This document shows, in pieces, positions 1 through 51,411 of a stretch of 51,411 nucleotides of DNA. The first letter of the stretch is position 1, and the number at the start of each line of letters is the position of its first letter. The translations under genes and the position numbers were made by a program. Source of the DNA: Candidatus Zixiibacteriota bacterium (GTDB taxonomy: Bacteria > Zixibacteria > MSB-5A5 > GN15 > FEB-12); the NCBI GenBank assembly GCA_019038695.1, contig JAHOYZ010000053.1:1-51411 (forward strand), read 5' to 3'. The notes under the pieces were generated by a model. That model did not search any database. It saw only the letters and a program-made list of their open reading frames with translations, and was not told where the DNA came from.

Positions 1-684
1 CTGGGCAATGGCGACGGAACCTTCCAGTCTGCGGTTAACTATACCGCCGGAGATGACCCTTTCTCTGTTTTCTCGATTGATTTAGACGGTGATGGCAACA
101 ATGATCTGGCCACGGCGAACTTTTACTCTAACAATGTTTCGATACTGCTGGGCAATGGCGACGGAACATTCCAGTCGGCAGTTAACTATACCACCGGATA
201 TAGCCCTCGCTCTGTTTTCTCGATTGATTTTAACGGCGATGGTAACAATGATCTGGCGACTGCGAACGGATACTCTGACGATGTTTCGATACTGCTGGGC
301 AATGGCGACGGAACATTCCAGTCTGCGGTTAACTATGCCGTCGGAGGTGGCCCTCGTTCTGTTTTCTCGATTGATTTTGACGGCGATGGCGACAATGATC
401 TGGCGACTGCGAACTTTGACTCTGACGATGTTTCGATACTGCTGAATCTGACTATCTGCTGCAACGGCGACGGCTTGCGCGGCAATGTCGACTACTTATT
501 GCCCGATGAAATCAACATCGCCGACCTGACTTACCTGGTGGCCTACCTATTCACCGGAGGGGCAGAGCCGCCGTGTATAGATGAAAGTGACATAGACGGT
601 AATGGCGAGATCAATATCGCCGATCTGACTTATCTCGTTTCGTACTTGTTTACTGGAGGTATACCGCCGGTGGTGTGCCCGTAG
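1..684 (+). CDS. FG-GAP/VCBS repeat protein with C-terminal dockerin-like module (5' truncated)
   Basis: The reading frame is open from the first base and ends at a TAG at 682-684, so the 5' part lies outside the window. The visible 227 residues contain three FG-GAP-type repeats of 49 residues, each with SVFSID followed by a calcium-loop pattern (DxDGDGxND) and ending SILLGNGDGTF. Such repeats form blades of beta-propellers in secreted proteins. From about residue 154 a Cys-Cys pair leads into a dockerin-like domain with two copies of INIADLTYLV; the second has a canonical DIDGNGE calcium loop. The protein is a close paralogue of the genes at 12733 and 50143. The ligand is unknown. Dockerin modules normally bind cohesins, but no cohesin is visible here. 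Confidence 0.9.
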   Translation: MGNGDGTFQSAVNYTAGDDPFSVFSIDLDGDGNNDLATANFYSNNVSILLGNGDGTFQSAVNYTTGYSPRSVFSIDFNGDGNNDLATANGYSDDVSILLGNGDGTFQSAVNYAVGGGPRSVFSIDFDGDGDNDLATANFDSDDVSILLNLTICCNGDGLRGNVDYLLPDEINIADLTYLVAYLFTGGAEPPCIDESDIDGNGEINIADLTYLVSYLFTGGIPPVVCP

Positions 685-12227: not shown

Positions 12228-12658
12228 GGACCGAGTAGAACGAAAGGTGGTTAAAACCTAGTCTAGGCTGGGTGGCCCATCATTTAGGGACTATTGATAA
12301 ACCCAGATAATTGAAACATGCTTCGACTCCGCTCAGCATGACAAACTGCAACATGTTGTCTTTCAAGTCACCCAACCTGGCAATGCCAGTGAGCGGAGTC
12401 GAAGGGTTATGTGTGCCATGCTCAAACTTGTTTGACAGGCATTGCCTGTTTTTGGTAGGGCAGGAGCCCTTATTGCTCCTGCCGAATGCGGCAGAACCAC
12501 CAAGGGGTTCTTCCCTACTGTGGGCTGTCTTCAGTTTCGACAGGCAATACTTGTCATGCCGGACTTGATCCGGTATCCAGTTCCAGATTCGAAGACTGGA
12601 TTCCGGCGTTCGCCGGAAAGACGGACTTAACAAGGCAGACACCCACAACCGAAACCCC
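12228..12658. repeat. Intergenic block of several dispersed inverted-repeat elements
   Basis: No gene is seen here. The block contains TGGGTGGCCCATCA (about 12268), a perfect 15-bp inverted repeat CTTCGACTCCGCTCA/TGAGCGGAGTCGAAG (12321-12335 and 12390-12404), a hairpin around CAAACTTGTTTG followed by the palindrome ACAGGCA-T-TGCCTGT (12435-12449), and a double hairpin at 12551-12624. The same elements recur at 49860-50115. They look like non-autonomous, REP- or MITE-like intergenic repeats. Confidence 0.7.
12551..12624. repeat. Double-hairpin dispersed element (TCATGCCGGACTTGATCCGG type)
   Basis: The left half TCATGCCGGACTTGATCCGG-ATCCAG forms one hairpin. The right half TTCCGGCG-TT-CGCCGGAA (12601-12618) forms a second. 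CCAG and CTGG ends face each other across a short spacer. Copies of the left half occur at 49862 and 50069. Similar elements are widespread in bacterial intergenic DNA. Confidence 0.65.
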
Positions 12659-12686
12659 TTGTTCATAGCCTCTTTTGTGCTATATT
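12659..12686 (+). promoter_or_regulatory. Candidate promoter of the FG-GAP gene
   Basis: TTGTTC (12659-12664), a 16-base spacer and TATATT (12681-12686) lie 46 bases before the ATG at 12733. The ribosome-binding site AAGGAGAT (12718-12725) is strong and fixes that start. Confidence 0.5.
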
Positions 12687-12732
12687 GACTCTCAAGGAGT
12701 ACTCACATACTACTTCTAAGGAGATTACAAAC

Positions 12733-14961
12733 ATGAAGTCTCTAACACTATTCAGAAGTTGCATCTTAGTTGCCTTGCTGGTGACACTATCAAGTATTAG
12801 TGCTTTCTCACAGGATATGTTTGACGCCAGAATGGACTATGCCGCCGGAATTGCCCCTCTCTCTGTTTACTCAATTGATTTTAACGGCGATGGCTGCAAT
12901 GATCTGGTGGCTGCGAACTATACGTCTGACGATGTTTCGATATTGCTGGGCAATGGAGACGGTACATTCCAGTCTGCGGTTAACTATGCCACCGGAGATG
13001 GTCCTTACTCTGTTTTCTCGATTGATTTTAACGGCGATGGTCACAATGATCTGGTGACTGCGAACTATTACTCTGACGATGCTTCGATACTGCTGGGTAA
13101 TGGGGACGGAACATTCCAGAGTGCGGTTAACTATGTCGCCGGAAATGCCCCTATCTCTGTTTTCTCGATTGATTTTAACGGCGATGGTCACAATGATCTA
13201 GCCACTGCGAACAGATACTCTGACGATGTTTCGATACTGCTAGGCAATGGCGACGGAACCTTCCAGAGTGTAGTTAACTATACCACAGGAGATGATCCTC
13301 GTTCTGTTTTCTCGATTGATTTTAACGGCGATGGCGACAATGATCTGGCGACTGCGAACGCGTACTCTGACAATGTTTCGATACTGCTGGGGAATGGCGA
13401 CGGTACCTTCCAGTCTGCTGTTAACTATGCTGCCGGAGATGATCCTTCCTCTGTTTTCTCGATTGATTTTAACGGTGATAGTTACAATGATCTGGCGACT
13501 GCGAACGTAAGCTCTGACAATGTTTCGATACTGCTGGGCAATGGAGACGGTACCTTCCAGACTGCGGTTAACTATGTTGCCGGAAATGGCACTTGGTCTG
13601 TTTTCTCGATTGATCTTAACGACGATACCATACCTGATCTGGCGACTGCAAACGCATACTCTGACGATGTTTCGATACTGCTGGGCAATGGCGACGGAAC
13701 CTTCCAGAGCGCGGTTAACTATGCCACCGGAGATGGCCCTTACTCTGTTTTCTCGATTGACTTTAATGGCGATGGCAACTATGATCTGGCGACTGCGAAT
13801 TACTTATCTGACAATGTTTCGATACTGCTGGGCAATGGCGACGGTACATTCCAGAGTGCGGTTAACTATGCCGTCGGAGATTATCCTCGTTCTGTTTTCT
13901 CGATTAATTTTAATGGCGATGACTACAATGATCTGGCGACTGCGAACTGGAACTCTGACGATGTTTCGATATTGCTGGGCAATGGGGATGGAACATTCCA
14001 GAGTACGGTTAGCTATACCGCCGGAGATGGTCCTTTCTCTGTTTTCTCGATTGATTTTAACGGCGATGGCGACAATGATCTGGCGACTGCGAACCGTGAG
14101 TCTGACAATGTTTCGATACTGCTGGGCAATGGCAACGGAACCTTCCAGACTGCAGTTAACTATGCCGCTGGAGTTCGCCCTATCTCTGTTTTCTCGATTG
14201 ATTTTAACGGCGATGGCTACAATGATCTGGCAACTGCGAACCAAGGCTCTGAGGATGTTTCGATACTGCTGGGCAATGGAGACGGAACATTCCAGTCTGC
14301 GGATAACTATACCGCCGGAGGCGGCCCTACCTCTGTTTTCTCGATTGATTTTAACGGCGATGGCGACAATGATCTGGCGACTGCAAACTATAACTCTGAC
14401 GATGTTTCGATATTGCTGGGCAATGGCGACGGCACCTTCCAGAGTGCGATTAACTATGCCGCCGGAGATCAACCTTGGTCTGTTTTCTCGATTGATTTTG
14501 ATGGCGATGGTCATAATGATCTGGTGACTGCGAACGTAGGCTCTGACGATGTTTCGATACTGCTGGGCAATGGGGACGGAACATTCCAGTCTGCGGTTAA
14601 CTATGCCACCGGAAATGGCCCTTTCTCTGTTTTCTCGATTGATTTCAACGGCGATGGTAATAATGATCTGGCGACTGCGAACCGTGACTCTGATAATATT
14701 TCGATACTTCTCAATCTAACTGGTCCGTACACCTGCTGCAATGGTGACGGCATGCGCGGCAATGTCGACTATGTATTGCCCGATGAAATCAACATTGCTG
14801 ACCTGACTTACCTTGTCGCCTACCTGTTTACCGGAGGGTCGGAGCCACCGTGTATAGATGAGGCTGACGTAGACGGCAATGACGAGATCAATATAGGCGA
14901 CCTGACCTATCTGGTTTCGTACTTGTTCACTGGAGGACCTGCACCGGCGGCGTGTCCGTAG
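12733..14961 (+). CDS. Secreted FG-GAP repeat protein with dockerin-like C-terminus
   Basis: The ATG at 12733, seven bases after AAGGAGAT, gives 742 residues beginning with a clear signal peptide (MKSLTLFRSCILVALLV to about SAFSQ). Thirteen FG-GAP repeats of exactly 49 residues follow, each with SVFSIDFNGDG-NDLATAN and SILLGNGDGTFQ. The Asp-rich loops should bind calcium and the array should fold as one or two beta-propellers. The last about 75 residues are a dockerin-like module (NVDYVLPDEINIADL and DVDGNDEINIGDL). The protein is extracellular or surface-bound and probably binds a ligand or partner. Its closest relatives are at both window ends. Repeats differ mainly at two short codon clusters. 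No enzymatic motif is present. Confidence 0.93.
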   Translation: MKSLTLFRSCILVALLVTLSSISAFSQDMFDARMDYAAGIAPLSVYSIDFNGDGCNDLVAANYTSDDVSILLGNGDGTFQSAVNYATGDGPYSVFSIDFNGDGHNDLVTANYYSDDASILLGNGDGTFQSAVNYVAGNAPISVFSIDFNGDGHNDLATANRYSDDVSILLGNGDGTFQSVVNYTTGDDPRSVFSIDFNGDGDNDLATANAYSDNVSILLGNGDGTFQSAVNYAAGDDPSSVFSIDFNGDSYNDLATANVSSDNVSILLGNGDGTFQTAVNYVAGNGTWSVFSIDLNDDTIPDLATANAYSDDVSILLGNGDGTFQSAVNYATGDGPYSVFSIDFNGDGNYDLATANYLSDNVSILLGNGDGTFQSAVNYAVGDYPRSVFSINFNGDDYNDLATANWNSDDVSILLGNGDGTFQSTVSYTAGDGPFSVFSIDFNGDGDNDLATANRESDNVSILLGNGNGTFQTAVNYAAGVRPISVFSIDFNGDGYNDLATANQGSEDVSILLGNGDGTFQSADNYTAGGGPTSVFSIDFNGDGDNDLATANYNSDDVSILLGNGDGTFQSAINYAAGDQPWSVFSIDFDGDGHNDLVTANVGSDDVSILLGNGDGTFQSAVNYATGNGPFSVFSIDFNGDGNNDLATANRDSDNISILLNLTGPYTCCNGDGMRGNVDYVLPDEINIADLTYLVAYLFTGGSEPPCIDEADVDGNDEINIGDLTYLVSYLFTGGPAPAACP
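12832..14715 (+). repeat. Tandem array of thirteen 147-bp coding repeats
   Basis: The SVxSID codons recur with exact 147-bp spacing from 12862 to 14626, which is twelve periods and thirteen units with no insertion or deletion. Units are nearly identical in nucleotide sequence outside two variable codon clusters, so recent duplication or gene conversion is likely. The same unit occurs at 1-450 and, on the minus strand, at 50820-51411. Confidence 0.95.
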
Positions 14962-19190: not shown

Positions 19191-21587
19191 TCAGGTCTGG
19201 AACAGGTATTGCAATTTCATGAAGAAATGCCGTTCGGTCATTTTCCAGTCTGAAGGTGATTCAGAATTACGGTTCAGATCACGATAGTCATGCGTCGTAC
19301 CGATATAGAACATCGAGAATGGACTGATCCGATATGTGATCAACGGATCAACATCCCATTGCCTTGATTCATAGATCGGTAAGCTCGCGACCGGCCATTC
19401 CTCCGCCCCGTTGAACCTGTATTTCATTTCAAACTCGTTGTATTGAACAACCAGCCTCAGAGATAACCGGGGGTTCACCTGTAACTGCAAACGAGTTCGA
19501 CCAATGAACTGTCGGAACAACTCTGTATCATCCTCGACATAAGTGCTCTTGACATAGCGTACATTGGGTTCGATAGTCAGGCGATCGATCGGCTTCAAAT
19601 CCGCAAATGCAGACAACGCCACCTCGTCACCCTGCACATCCACACTCAGAGCCGGACCTTTTCCGGTGCTGACGTTAACCCCGAAACCCAGTTTGTCATT
19701 TAACCGGTGGTTGGATGCAAACCGGACGTTCCACAGGTTGTCGTAGAAAATACCTCCCCACAATTCTTCGCCTCGATCGAAGGAGACTTCCAGATAAGTC
19801 TGCGCCACCCGCAAACTGGTGTTGAGCGACACTGTGGCATGACGCCATTTTCTTTGGCCGCCATAATTCCATCGAGCATTAACATTGAACTGGGGAGATA
19901 TCCGCTGGAATATAGTACCCTCCGGATAGAACGTGTAGGAACCATAAATGAACGAGTTTCTCTGGTTGTTCCACGGATCATAGCCGGTCTGGGTGCGATA
20001 TGACGGCGCAACTTCGTTGTAGTCGAGAATCATAGACCAGTTGCGACCGAACCTTCTTAGCTCAGCGATAAGGGCATGGCCATTGAATTTCTCACCATCC
20101 AATACAGCCGTGTGTTTGCCATCATCAAACAACTCTTGTGCACCCAGGACACTGTCGCGGACGTGCGAAACCTGGTTACTTGGCGTCGCATCCAACAATG
20201 AATCGAGGAACGGATTGAAATAGTCCGGCTCTTCGGTCCGCGAACCAACGATCTGACCAATCACACTGAGGGTACGAGACAATCGGATTCGCGTGTCAAG
20301 ACTCGCAATAGATCCATAGCCACCGCCATCGAATCGTCGATCAGTAAGCATGAACCCAACCTGCGAACCATTGCCGAAATATCGTTGACCGCGTAGGACA
20401 TTGACATAACTCTCGCCGACATCAGTCACCTCACCTCGCTCTTCAAGCGGAACAGTGTAAGGTGAGCTTTCATCGAGCGCTGACATAAAGGCGATGCCAA
20501 ACTTCTCTGTCCGGCCGGTGAATTTGGTGGCATACCTTGGAGTCTCAACAGTGCGTGTATCAAACGAATTGAAATACGTCCTGAAAAGATCAGCTCCCTC
20601 CTGGAAGAATGGCCTTCTTTCGAAAACCAGTAGTTGGATCGTCGAGTTCACATCCAACTGGGCCTGATCAGATTCAACCTGAGAGAAATCCGGATTATAG
20701 TAACCTTCAAGCGTCATTGAAGAAGAAATAGAATACTTGCCCTGTAACGCTAGTTGAGCATCCGGATCGTCGTTCTCAAAAGATGCCGCAGCACTCTGTG
20801 GGGAAAGAAAGCCAGACTGGCGAGCAACAACCGTCGGTAATATTTCAAACCCCTTGCCCGGCCGAACGTTCTTGATACCAGTCACAGTCCCATACTTACA
20901 GGCCTCGCAGGGTTCATTACGATCGTTGGCTCCCCATGTATACTGATAGTAGCTGTCGCGTGGACGATCGCGACGGAATTGGACTCGCCATGTTTGTTCA
21001 TCTTTACTCGGAAACCGCATACTGGCAAACGGCACTGCGAACTCCACAGTGTAGCCGGAATCCGTGACCTGTGCGGCCGACTGCCAGATTAGATCAAAAC
21101 CACTATCCTGTCCCCCCACCATAGTCCAGAGTCGATCCTTCTGCACGCCGTGTGGGTTTACAAACAACTCGTAGGCCCAGGATGCTTCACCATAGGTGTC
21201 GATTAGTACTCCGACCACATCGTCTCCGTAAAATTCATCCCGTTGACTCATTGTGGCCCGTATCTCGTCGGGATTGTCGTAGCAGATAAAACCAATATAC
21301 AGGTGTTCGTCATCGTATGTGATAAACGCCTCGGTCCGGACCTCCGGTCTAATATTCTCTCCGGGAGATATTTCGACAAAACTGGAAGCATGGCCGACGC
21401 CCTTCCAACCGGGATCACTCAGATCACCATCAATCTTGATTTCGCCCAAAGCTTCGACCGTGATCATAGTCGGCTGAAATGTTGGTTCAAAGCCAGTAGT
21501 TGCCAAAGCAACCGAAGACACCACCAGCAGAATGATGGCCGCTCTCATAATTGGAGTAAATAGAAGTACATTATTAATCAATTTCAT
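19191..21587 (-). CDS. CBM9-like/DUF5916 outer-membrane protein
   Basis: From the ATG at 21587 (AAAGGA eight bases upstream) the product is 798 residues with a signal peptide ending near VALATTG. Residues about 25-215 match the CBM9-like/DOMON domain: KIDGDLSDPGW, DDEHLYIGFICYDN, GDDVVGVLIDTYG and VEFAVPFASMRFP. The remaining 580 residues are rich in alternating aromatic/polar strands and match the DUF5916 region, which is thought to be an outer-membrane beta-barrel (FFQEGADLF, FAIAFMS-like strands, ending FMKLQYLFQT). The ligand is unknown; relatives sit near peptidases and transporters. The gene stands alone between the exported small protein and the YedF-like gene. Confidence 0.85.
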   Translation of the reverse strand: MKLINNVLLFTPIMRAAIILLVVSSVALATTGFEPTFQPTMITVEALGEIKIDGDLSDPGWKGVGHASSFVEISPGENIRPEVRTEAFITYDDEHLYIGFICYDNPDEIRATMSQRDEFYGDDVVGVLIDTYGEASWAYELFVNPHGVQKDRLWTMVGGQDSGFDLIWQSAAQVTDSGYTVEFAVPFASMRFPSKDEQTWRVQFRRDRPRDSYYQYTWGANDRNEPCEACKYGTVTGIKNVRPGKGFEILPTVVARQSGFLSPQSAAASFENDDPDAQLALQGKYSISSSMTLEGYYNPDFSQVESDQAQLDVNSTIQLLVFERRPFFQEGADLFRTYFNSFDTRTVETPRYATKFTGRTEKFGIAFMSALDESSPYTVPLEERGEVTDVGESYVNVLRGQRYFGNGSQVGFMLTDRRFDGGGYGSIASLDTRIRLSRTLSVIGQIVGSRTEEPDYFNPFLDSLLDATPSNQVSHVRDSVLGAQELFDDGKHTAVLDGEKFNGHALIAELRRFGRNWSMILDYNEVAPSYRTQTGYDPWNNQRNSFIYGSYTFYPEGTIFQRISPQFNVNARWNYGGQRKWRHATVSLNTSLRVAQTYLEVSFDRGEELWGGIFYDNLWNVRFASNHRLNDKLGFGVNVSTGKGPALSVDVQGDEVALSAFADLKPIDRLTIEPNVRYVKSTYVEDDTELFRQFIGRTRLQLQVNPRLSLRLVVQYNEFEMKYRFNGAEEWPVASLPIYESRQWDVDPLITYRISPFSMFYIGTTHDYRDLNRNSESPSDWKMTERHFFMKLQYLFQT

Positions 21588-21958
21588 ACGACAAATCCTT
21601 TCCAGGAACAAGTCCCGTTGAAACAAGTTCCGTTGAAACAAGTTCCGTTAAAACGACTTACGAGGCAACGCACAACTTCCGCGCCGCCTCGCACATGTAT
21701 CATACCACTACACAATCGCCGGACTCTGTCCAGACAATCACTCATTTATTCAGCCGTTCGCCCTCTTTTTACGGTCCGCTAATAGTCATATACGTCGGCT
21801 TGCCAAGAAGGTTGTCCCGGACATGATTTTATTTGAGTTTTGGTTCAGAGCCCGTCGTACCATTCGGGCAACAGGTATAAGAGACTTTCCCGACGCCGTT
21901 CATCACGTACATCAGGAACAATTCGTATGCTATCGTCGACTCGACGTCGGTGTAAATC
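21588..21958. other. Intergenic region with tandem 15-bp repeat and possible small reading frame
   Basis: This 371-base gap carries three tandem copies of a 15-bp unit (CAAGTTCCGTTGAAA type, 21609-21653) just upstream of the DUF5916 start. Further along, on the minus strand, a short open frame ending at 21829 (residues YFDPEIYTDVESTIAYELF and on to TCCPNGTTGSEPKLK) follows the YedF-like gene in another phase. It lacks a good start, so I do not call it a gene. Confidence 0.45.
21609..21653. repeat. Three tandem 15-bp repeats upstream of DUF5916 gene
   Basis: The units are 21609-21623, 21624-21638 and 21639-21653, differing at one or two bases. They lie 22 to 66 bases before the start codon at 21587, within the likely untranslated leader. 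Variation in copy number could alter expression. Confidence 0.75.
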
Positions 21959-49718: not shown

Positions 49719-50142
49719 GGGGTAATTTACCCTCTTTATCACCTCCGTGGGATGAGTCTTTGGTAGGGCAAGAGCCCCGCGCTCCCGCCAGCGGCAGACG
49801 CCCTCGTCTGCCCTAACCATATTGCCATGGGCGGCAGACGCCCCCGTCTGCCCTAACCATATGTCATGCCGGACTTGATCTCCCCGTCGGGTGGCATGCT
49901 CAAACTTGTTTGGGCATGCAGGCATCGCCTGTTTCTGGTAGTGCAGGAGCCCCGGGTGGCATGCTCAAACTTGTTTGGGCATGATTATTCTTGTAGGGCG
50001 AAACCCTCTTAGCGGTTCCGCCATCTCGAAGTATCAGGACCGCAAGGGGTCCTGACCTACAAATACTTGTCATGCCGGACTTGATCCGGCATCCAGTCCT
50101 GTAGACTGGGTGGCCCATCAGCTTGCTGTGGGATCCATGAGC
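49719..50142. repeat. Intergenic block of dispersed hairpin repeats between valS and the third FG-GAP gene
   Basis: No gene is seen here. The region holds two tandem copies of GGCAGACGCCCTCGTCTGCC-type palindromes with a CTAACCATAT tail (49793-49862), two copies of the GCATGCTCAAACTTGTTTGG hairpin (about 49894-49920 and 49959-49985), two copies of the TCATGCCGGACTTGATC element (49863 and 50069) and TGGGTGGCCCATCA (50107). The same mix occurs at 12228-12658. Confidence 0.75.
49793..49852. repeat. Tandem pair of dispersed palindromes
   Basis: The palindromes are at 49793-49812 and 49833-49852, each followed by CTAACCATAT. They differ at one central base. They match single copies at 715-734 and 18326-18343. 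Confidence 0.75.
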
Positions 50143-51411
50143 CTACGGACATGCCACCGGCGGTATACCTCCAGTGAACAAATACGAAACCAGATAGGTC
50201 AAGTCAGCGATATTGATCTCGCCATTACCATCTATGTCAGCTTCTTCAAAGCACGGAGGCTCCGCCCCTCCTGTGAACAGATAGGCCACCAGGTAAGTCA
50301 GGTCAGCAATGTTGATTTCATCGGGCAATAAGTAGTCGACATTGCCACGCAAGCCAATGCAGCAGCATATATCCCCAACTCCGTCACCATTGGTATCGAG
50401 TTGATTGGGATTCGGATCATCAGGGCAGTTGTCACAAACATCGCCTACCGTGTCACTGTCTACATCAGACTGATCAGTATTGACTGAGTCAGGACAGTTG
50501 TCGCCAGCATCACAGATACCATCACTGTCTGTATCCGTGCCATCATTGTTGGGAAGGTTGTCCGCAAGTGGTCCAAAACCATCTGTGCCTATGGAGCAGT
50601 CATCACACCCATCGCTATCTAAATCTTCACAAATATTGGGATCAAAAGGGTCTAAATCTACAAGGTCTTCGACACCATCGTTATCGTCGTCAAGGTCACA
50701 AGCGTCACCTACTGTGTCACCGTCAGTATCTTCCTGTCCGGGGTTGTAATCGGTTGGGCAGTTATCATCGTCGTCGCTTATCCCATCGCCATCGGTGTCC
50801 GTTATGGTTGTGTTCAGCAGTATCGAAACATCGTCAGAGTTTCTGTTCGCAGTCACCAGATCATTGTTGCCATCGCCGTTAAAATCAATCGAGAAAACAG
50901 AGGCAGGCCAAGTTCCGACGGCATAGTTAACGGCACTCTGGAATGTTCCGTCGCCATTGCCCAGTAGTATCGAAACATTGTCAGAGTACCAGTTCGCAGT
51001 GGCCAGATCATTGTCGCCATCACCGTTATAATCAATCGAGAAAACAGAGCGAGGATAATCTCCTACGGCATAGTTAACGGCACTCTGGAATGTTCCGTCG
51101 CCATTGCCCAGCAGTATCGAAACATTGTCAGAGTACCAGTTCGCAGTGGCCAGATCATTGTTGCCATCGTCGTTAAAATCAATCGAAAAAACAGAGATAG
51201 GGCCATCTCCGGCGGCATAGTTCACCTCAGACTGGAAGGTTCCGTCGCCATTGCCCAGCAGTATCGAAACATTGTCAGACTTTTGGTTCGCAGTCGCCAG
51301 ATCATTGTTACCATCGTCGTCAAAATCAATCGAGAAAACAGATACTGCGTGATCTCCGACGGCATAATTAACCGTACTTTGGAAGGTTCCGTCGCCATTG
51401 CCCAGCAGTAT
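50143..51411 (-). CDS. FG-GAP/thrombospondin type 3/dockerin-like surface protein (5' truncated)
   Basis: The frame is open to the window edge, so the N-terminus is missing; 422 residues are visible. They run as four FG-GAP repeats of 49 residues (SVFSID, NDLATAN, ILLGNGDGTF), then about six thrombospondin type 3 calcium-binding repeats (DTDGDGISDDDDNCP, DVDSDTVGDVCDNCP and similar, about 150-350), then the same dockerin-like module as in the other two proteins (GNVDYLLPDEINIADL and DIDGNGEINIADL). It is a secreted, calcium-rich surface or extracellular protein. The extra type 3 repeats probably act as a rigid spacer. A stop is at 50143. Confidence 0.92.
   Translation of the reverse strand: MLLGNGDGTFQSTVNYAVGDHAVSVFSIDFDDDGNNDLATANQKSDNVSILLGNGDGTFQSEVNYAAGDGPISVFSIDFNDDGNNDLATANWYSDNVSILLGNGDGTFQSAVNYAVGDYPRSVFSIDYNGDGDNDLATANWYSDNVSILLGNGDGTFQSAVNYAVGTWPASVFSIDFNGDGNNDLVTANRNSDDVSILLNTTITDTDGDGISDDDDNCPTDYNPGQEDTDGDTVGDACDLDDDNDGVEDLVDLDPFDPNICEDLDSDGCDDCSIGTDGFGPLADNLPNNDGTDTDSDGICDAGDNCPDSVNTDQSDVDSDTVGDVCDNCPDDPNPNQLDTNGDGVGDICCCIGLRGNVDYLLPDEINIADLTYLVAYLFTGGAEPPCFEEADIDGNGEINIADLTYLVSYLFTGGIPPVACP

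Follow-up and report, generated by a model that had tools for sequence, protein, structure and literature searches.

Diversifying selection at five loop codons of FG-GAP propeller repeats in Zixibacteria

Introduction

One gene in the genome of a Candidatus Zixiibacteriota bacterium encodes thirteen FG-GAP units, which are alike over most of their length and differ at a few fixed codons. The locus raises the question of what keeps the framework of the units alike and the few codons different, and of what the variable codons could serve. A preliminary description of this DNA had proposed a repertoire of binding surfaces, kept by gene conversion plus diversifying selection. Here, we analyzed the window, which is the whole stretch of 51,411 nucleotides (contig C53), together with its source genome and related genomes. 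The source genome, G000, is 3.28 Mb in size, contains 58 contigs and is 96% complete. All genomes are metagenome-assembled and the arrays break contigs; assembly may account for part of the unit order and of the mosaics.

Results

Architecture of the array gene

The array gene (P0001) occupies positions 12733–14961 of the plus strand. As judged from translation and Pfam searches, its 742-residue product is composed of a signal peptide, 13 FG-GAP units and a dockerin-type tail; the nearest relatives of the protein are found in Candidatus Zixiibacteriota. The repeats match the Pfam models FG-GAP_3 (PF13517, E 1.1e-93, 12 stretches) and PF01839 (E 8e-47). Further matches, with viral core, kinase and DUF models, were regarded as noise, no single stretch passing alone, and neither WD40 nor NACHT was matched in P0001. 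The signal peptide is predicted at about 12733–12813, based on inspection of the translation by eye. It lies within a leader plus upstream stretch (12676–12825, plus strand) that is common to other array genes of the genome, sharing 78–97% nucleotide identity with the copies on contigs C36, C39, C42 and C19. The dockerin type I-like C-terminal tail (14710–14958, plus strand) scores 25.6 bits against PF00404, for which the cut-off is 22.9. P0001 is thus equipped with a predicted export signal and a dockerin-type tail.

The thirteen 147-bp units, identified by TRF and translation, span 12826–14712 of the plus strand in perfect 49-codon register, in agreement with the preliminary description; unit 13 stops after codon 41, the final 8 codons being missing. 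The earlier wording "nearly identical DNA" is somewhat strong, as TRF matches are 83% in the main array and the mean within-array framework nucleotide distance is 0.12. The unit consensus of G000 is SAVNYAAGDGPxSVFSIDFNGDGxNDLATANxxSDNVSILLGNGDGTFQ, 49 residues in length. A DFNGDGxxD-type motif, which resembles the DxDxDG-type calcium loop, is present in almost all units, and calcium binding is predicted.

The neighboring genes are of housekeeping type and provide no functional clue within the window, where no RNA families were found either. One palindromic intergenic element, TGCCGGACTTGATCCGGTATCCAG, occurs at 12557–12580 and 50073–50096, near two array genes, for which the chance expectation is none. 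One 15-bp tandem repeat of 3.2 copies (21607–21654) is located at the start of a minus-strand frame (19191–21641).

A dispersed gene family

Two further array genes are cut by the ends of the window. The one at 1–684 (plus strand) retains three and a part units and a dockerin-type tail at its 3′ end; the other, at 50143–51411 (minus strand), retains as its 3′ part four and a part units, a thrombospondin type 3 linker and a dockerin-type tail. In both arrays (1–447 and 50815–51411), the variation falls at the same unit positions as in P0001, as had been noted before. Elsewhere in G000, arrays are present on C36 (7 units) and C39 (6 units) and, at contig ends, on C42, C27 and C19. Five array genes have the leader and upstream stretch in common, with 78–97% nucleotide identity, indicating that the array genes form a dispersed family; older, diverged 7-unit relatives are located on C1, C14, C21 and C28. 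Both window ends (1 and 51411), like the ends of C42, C27 and C19, fall within arrays; the assembly breaks at these repeats, so the arrays are at least as many and as long as given here.

The C36 array (L031, 3754–7296) is fused to a region of several hundred residues that is followed by a dockerin-type tail, so the propeller is part of at least two protein architectures. In two array proteins, one encoded at 50143–51411 (minus strand) and one on L034, the propeller is linked to the tail by thrombospondin type 3-like calcium repeats. Within the window, the dockerin-type tail was located at 14752–14958, 475–681 and 50146–50352, and the match at 430–681 (PF00404, 21.3 bits) falls just under the cut-off of 22.9. 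The tail has 111 matches in G000, at about 100 places, and dozens in relatives. With so many places, it appears to be a general surface or sorting tag, not one specific to this family. A search of G000 for cohesin gave one single clear ORF (L189, 1570–4914), with a partial match of 40.4 bits; the other matches were marginal.

Variation is focused on five codons in two genera

In the first unit, variable loop 1 (unit codons 9–12, the D–A loop) is located at 12850–12861 and variable loop 2 (unit codons 32–33, the B–C loop) at 12919–12924, both on the plus strand and both recurring each 147 bp. The hypervariable codons of loop 1 are 9, 10 and 12. The translation reproduces the earlier list, both for the residue pair that separates TAN from SD and for the loop preceding SVFS. 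In G000, amino-acid entropy exceeds 2 bits at codons 9, 10, 12, 24, 32 and 33. The concentration on two codon clusters is far beyond chance: pN is 0.535–0.575 at the variable codons and 0.09 in the framework, where pS is 0.23. Codon 24, which belongs to the calcium loop and was absent from the earlier list, varies in G000 but is invariant in G010, a genome of a second genus.

G010 contains seven or more such arrays and keeps its own framework, TAVDYGAGDGPxSVFSIDLDGDGDNDLAVANxxSDNVSILKNNGDGTFQ, in 65 units. Codons 9, 10, 12, 32 and 33 were first picked in G000 for being variable; since the sites were defined there, G010 serves as an independent test. Rates were counted pairwise (NG86), on sequences that recombine, and the synonymous rate of the framework served as the clock. 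At the five codons, pN is 0.575 in G000 (framework pS 0.232) and 0.571 in G010 (framework pS 0.320), corresponding to ratios of 3.92 (bootstrap 3.07–4.79, 37 units) and 2.58 (bootstrap 2.24–2.88, 65 units), respectively. The main array of P0001 alone gives 5.5. Single-codon bootstraps exceed 1 in both genomes for codons 10, 12, 32 and 33; codon 9 is above 1 in G000 only and weak in G010. Codons 1, 6, 7 and 24 exceed 1 in G000 only; at codon 1, the mixture of TCT and AGT serines inflates the value. The preliminary description had predicted a nonsynonymous excess of this sort, and it is large at the named codons, with purification elsewhere, and is repeated in the independent genus. Taken together, the five codons of the D–A and B–C loops are under positive diversifying selection, independently in two genera.

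In the older arrays, synonymous sites have nearly reached saturation and the ratios are about 1 or below; therefore, the signal is visible only in recently homogenized frameworks. Synonymous constraint was considered as a cause of the low framework pS and was rejected: the G010 and G000 consensus sequences differ at 11 of 20 fourfold sites, although the protein framework is common to both. With only 9/20 matching, these sites are saturated; at the DNA level, then, the framework does change.

The variable loops are predicted to lie on one face

A 7-unit homologue from genome G028 is confidently predicted to fold into a 7-bladed propeller, with pLDDT >90 for most residues. Among solved structures, the best matches of this model are integrin alpha subunits, including alphaIIb (Z ∼34, 2.5 Å). 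In unit codons, its strands are D (3–6), A (11–17), B (26–31) and C (36–40). These spans place codons 9, 10 and 12 in or at the D–A loop, and codons 32–33 in the B–C loop. In an up-down four-stranded blade, the D–A and B–C loops are on the same face, opposite the A–B and C–D loops. On the basis of this strand topology, all five variable codons are predicted to lie on one face of the propeller, opposite the calcium (A–B) loops, in line with the binding surface that had been suggested. The model of the 13-unit P0001 itself is of moderate confidence (pLDDT 74, pTM 0.53); with this model, Foldseek returned generic multi-propeller matches only (TM ∼0.25).

Evidence for unit exchange within genomes

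Framework distance and loop distance are nearly uncorrelated, with r of 0.14 and 0.22 in the two genomes. In G000, all the 37 loop-1 haplotypes are distinct (37/37), and where the frameworks of two units diverge by 5.9%, 56% of their variable bases differ. At the loops, neighboring units resemble each other no more closely than units far apart do. Simple tandem duplication was looked for and none was seen, since loop 1 is never repeated in G000 and neighbors are no closer than other units. In G010, identical loop-1 cassettes occur in units with different loop 2, indicating that the loop cassettes are shuffled.

Framework sites are near linkage equilibrium, even when they are ≤15 bp apart, and 99/153 and 516/820 framework site pairs are four-gamete incompatible in the two genomes. 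Together with the shared cassettes, these observations support unit exchange. The natural reading of the unlinked framework and the shuffled cassettes is recombination between units. Framework distance is 0.124 within arrays and 0.136 between arrays, suggesting that homogenization is genome-wide and not per array; the blade frameworks are kept alike across the dispersed arrays of one genome. As the homogenizing process we infer gene conversion, recent gene duplication being a possible alternative.

Blade DNA is shared between genera

The unit consensus matches that of G000 at 19 of 22 fourfold sites for L074 (genome G061) and at 21 of 23 for G028. For the same genomes nuoD is synonymously saturated, with fourfold identity to G000 of 0.39 and 0.41, respectively. 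In G072, a member of genus g20, the units share 95–96% framework DNA identity with the G000 consensus. The prfB gene on the G072 array contig encodes a protein that is 88% identical to that of another g20 genome and 76% identical to that of G000; siding with g20, it argues that the contig is not stray G000 DNA. Near-identical blade DNA in genera whose housekeeping genes are saturated points to horizontal transfer, and the sequence comparison thus implies that blade DNA has been exchanged between genera.

The unit type is patchy in distribution. It is present in genera g1, g12, g20 and g28, most sister genomes lacking it at such identity; the congener G001 has one related unit by DNA, at 78%. 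The leaders of G028 and G072 have no recognizable likeness to the G000 leader, so the blades seem to travel apart from leaders. In an IMG/VR search for phage carriage of the blades, no relative was found.

Selection versus mutation at the variable codons

At positions 1 and 2 of the variable codons, diversity is about 0.6, near saturation, and at framework fourfold sites it is 0.22–0.28. Among NNY codons at these sites, heterozygosity reaches 0.6–0.9 at positions 1–2, whereas that of the silent C/T third base is mostly 0.06–0.30, with one codon at 0.43. The third bases are about as conserved as those of the framework, where C/T heterozygosity is 0.11 and 0.18 in the two genomes. Tyr is over-used at the variable codons (z 5.2 and 7.4), as is Trp in G000, and Cys is depleted (z −4.8 and −5.1); no stop codon was observed, with 7.6 and 12.4 expected. 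The conserved silent third bases and the over-use of Tyr point to selection on the amino acids. Local hypermutation was rejected owing to the conserved third bases, and the same evidence speaks against a mutation hotspot or conversion-sheltered loops, either of which would randomize the third base. Which serine codon is used depends on the position (TCT at codons 13 and 34, TCG at codons 16 and 38), indicating that the frameworks are of recent common ancestry and not saturated.

Several neutral or technical accounts have to be weighed against selection. Under ordinary amplification and decay, a single blade was recently amplified, its loops drift neutrally and its strands are purified. Highly repetitive VCBS and FG-GAP propellers are indeed common and amplify repeatedly, according to passages of PMC9218822, and in the old diverged arrays, too, variability peaks at the same loop positions. 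However, neutral sites cannot outrun synonymous sites, and the observed ratio is 2.6–3.9; with the conserved third bases in the same codons, the enrichment of Tyr and the depletion of Cys and stops, we consider this account unlikely. A related account supposes that short conversion tracts homogenize the framework while mismatched loops block exchange and so keep ancient neutral diversity. The near absence of correlation between framework and loop distances would fit, as would the lack of any greater loop similarity between adjacent units. But saturated neutral codons should have random third bases and not conserved ones, the amino-acid use is far from random, and intact loop-1 cassettes do move between G010 units, which makes sheltered old loops quite improbable.

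Chimeric assembly of strain variants of one array has to be considered as well, because C53, C42, C27 and C19 end within arrays. Chimerism, however, cannot explain why two genera show their nonsynonymous excess at the same five codons; the genes of P0001, C36 and C39 are intact frames with leader and tail, and in G028, whose chromosome is a single contig, an array is intact, so an artefact is very improbable. Targeted mutagenesis, for instance by a diversity-generating retroelement acting on AAY codons, is hardly credible, although most of the variable codons keep the C/T third base that an AAC/AAT template would give. The reverse transcriptase PF00078 has no match in G000 (96% complete), G010 (100%), G028 or G033, and since neither G000 nor G010 has one, a diversity-generating retroelement was rejected. 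The absence of a reverse transcriptase from the window, pointed out in the preliminary description, which left the mechanism open, thus holds genome-wide in G000 and narrows the choice. Moreover, NNR codons, such as those for Trp, Glu and Gln, account for 3–51% at individual sites, adenines beside the sites are conserved (AAC at codon 31, GAT of the calcium loop), and dozens of units vary, in many loci.

Discussion

Diversifying selection on the loops is the reading that we prefer, and the secreted integrin-type (FG-GAP/VCBS) beta-propeller multigene family probably works as a variable recognition repertoire. Homologous recombination, through short-tract gene conversion and unequal exchange, would homogenize and shuffle the units within and between loci, and blade DNA would pass between genera. 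The signal peptide would export the protein, the dockerin-type tail would hold it once exported, and the hypervariable face would bind variable extracellular partners. Candidates are molecules on the surface of other cells, phages, and markers of kin or non-kin, and the data favor none of them. The earlier reading is supported on the whole: selection and unit exchange are supported, while gene conversion and ligand binding are deduced from the pattern. Of the two results that would have spoken against that reading, even variation over the whole unit and burial of the variable sites, neither was obtained, the second being judged on strand topology. A bolder proposal, which we regard as doubtful, is a genus-spanning extracellular variable-receptor system, in which blades circulate horizontally among Zixibacteria and are homogenized throughout the genome by recombination, and hypervariable top-face loops decide recognition of kin, competitor, prey or phage. 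If true, it would give bacteria a counterpart to the allorecognition repeats of fungi, or to variable receptors built from repeats. The family is a candidate for diversified surface recognition in an uncultured phylum that works without a retroelement, and nature provides in it a library of loops set on one constant scaffold.

Among known systems, the highly repetitive VCBS/FG-GAP and WRAP propellers of bacteria (Pereira and Lupas 2022; Dunin-Horkawicz 2014, cited there) share the fold hub and the recent blade amplification. A suspected link to immunity or self-recognition is also in common, a self-recognition role having been suggested for VCBS proteins in passages of PMC9218822. Passages of that paper concern amplification and differentiation, to which the Zixibacteria add few-codon top-face selection and cross-genus blade sharing. 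Searches of open-licence papers brought up no description of diversifying selection focused on particular sites of FG-GAP/VCBS repeats. Like the beta-propeller of integrin alpha subunits, the Zixibacteria proteins possess FG-GAP repeats and calcium loops at one blade end; however, sequence identity is about 17%, the integrin blades are diverged, and the Zixibacteria show no sign of a beta subunit. Hypervariable, mostly NNY codons on a fixed scaffold are shared with diversity-generating retroelements, but in G000 there is no reverse transcriptase, many tandem units vary and NNR codons occur.

Closest in mode of evolution is the HNWD/HET-E/HET-D family of Podospora anserina, which serves fungal allorecognition. 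Like ours, it is a dispersed gene family whose propeller repeats are very similar to one another. In the WD40 repeats of HET-E, Paoletti et al. found positive selection at codon pairs 7/9 (d–a loop) and 25/27 (b–c turn), at the top of the propeller (PMC1805685); both families thus have a few positively selected codons in the d–a and b–c loops of the top face. HNWD/HET-E repeats undergo concerted evolution within and between loci (PMC1805685, PMC2873952), as do the Zixibacteria units, through gene conversion or perhaps recent duplication. Different from the fungal repeats, the Zixibacteria blades are bacterial and belong to another superfamily (FG-GAP/VCBS, with calcium loops). The fungal proteins are NLRs, whereas the Zixibacteria proteins are predicted to be secreted, with a dockerin-type tail, and no NACHT or effector domain was seen in them. 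The likeness is one of convergence in mode of evolution, not of membership: the same solution, conserved blades with a few selected top-face codons, was reached independently in fungal intracellular WD40 propellers and in bacterial secreted integrin-type propellers.
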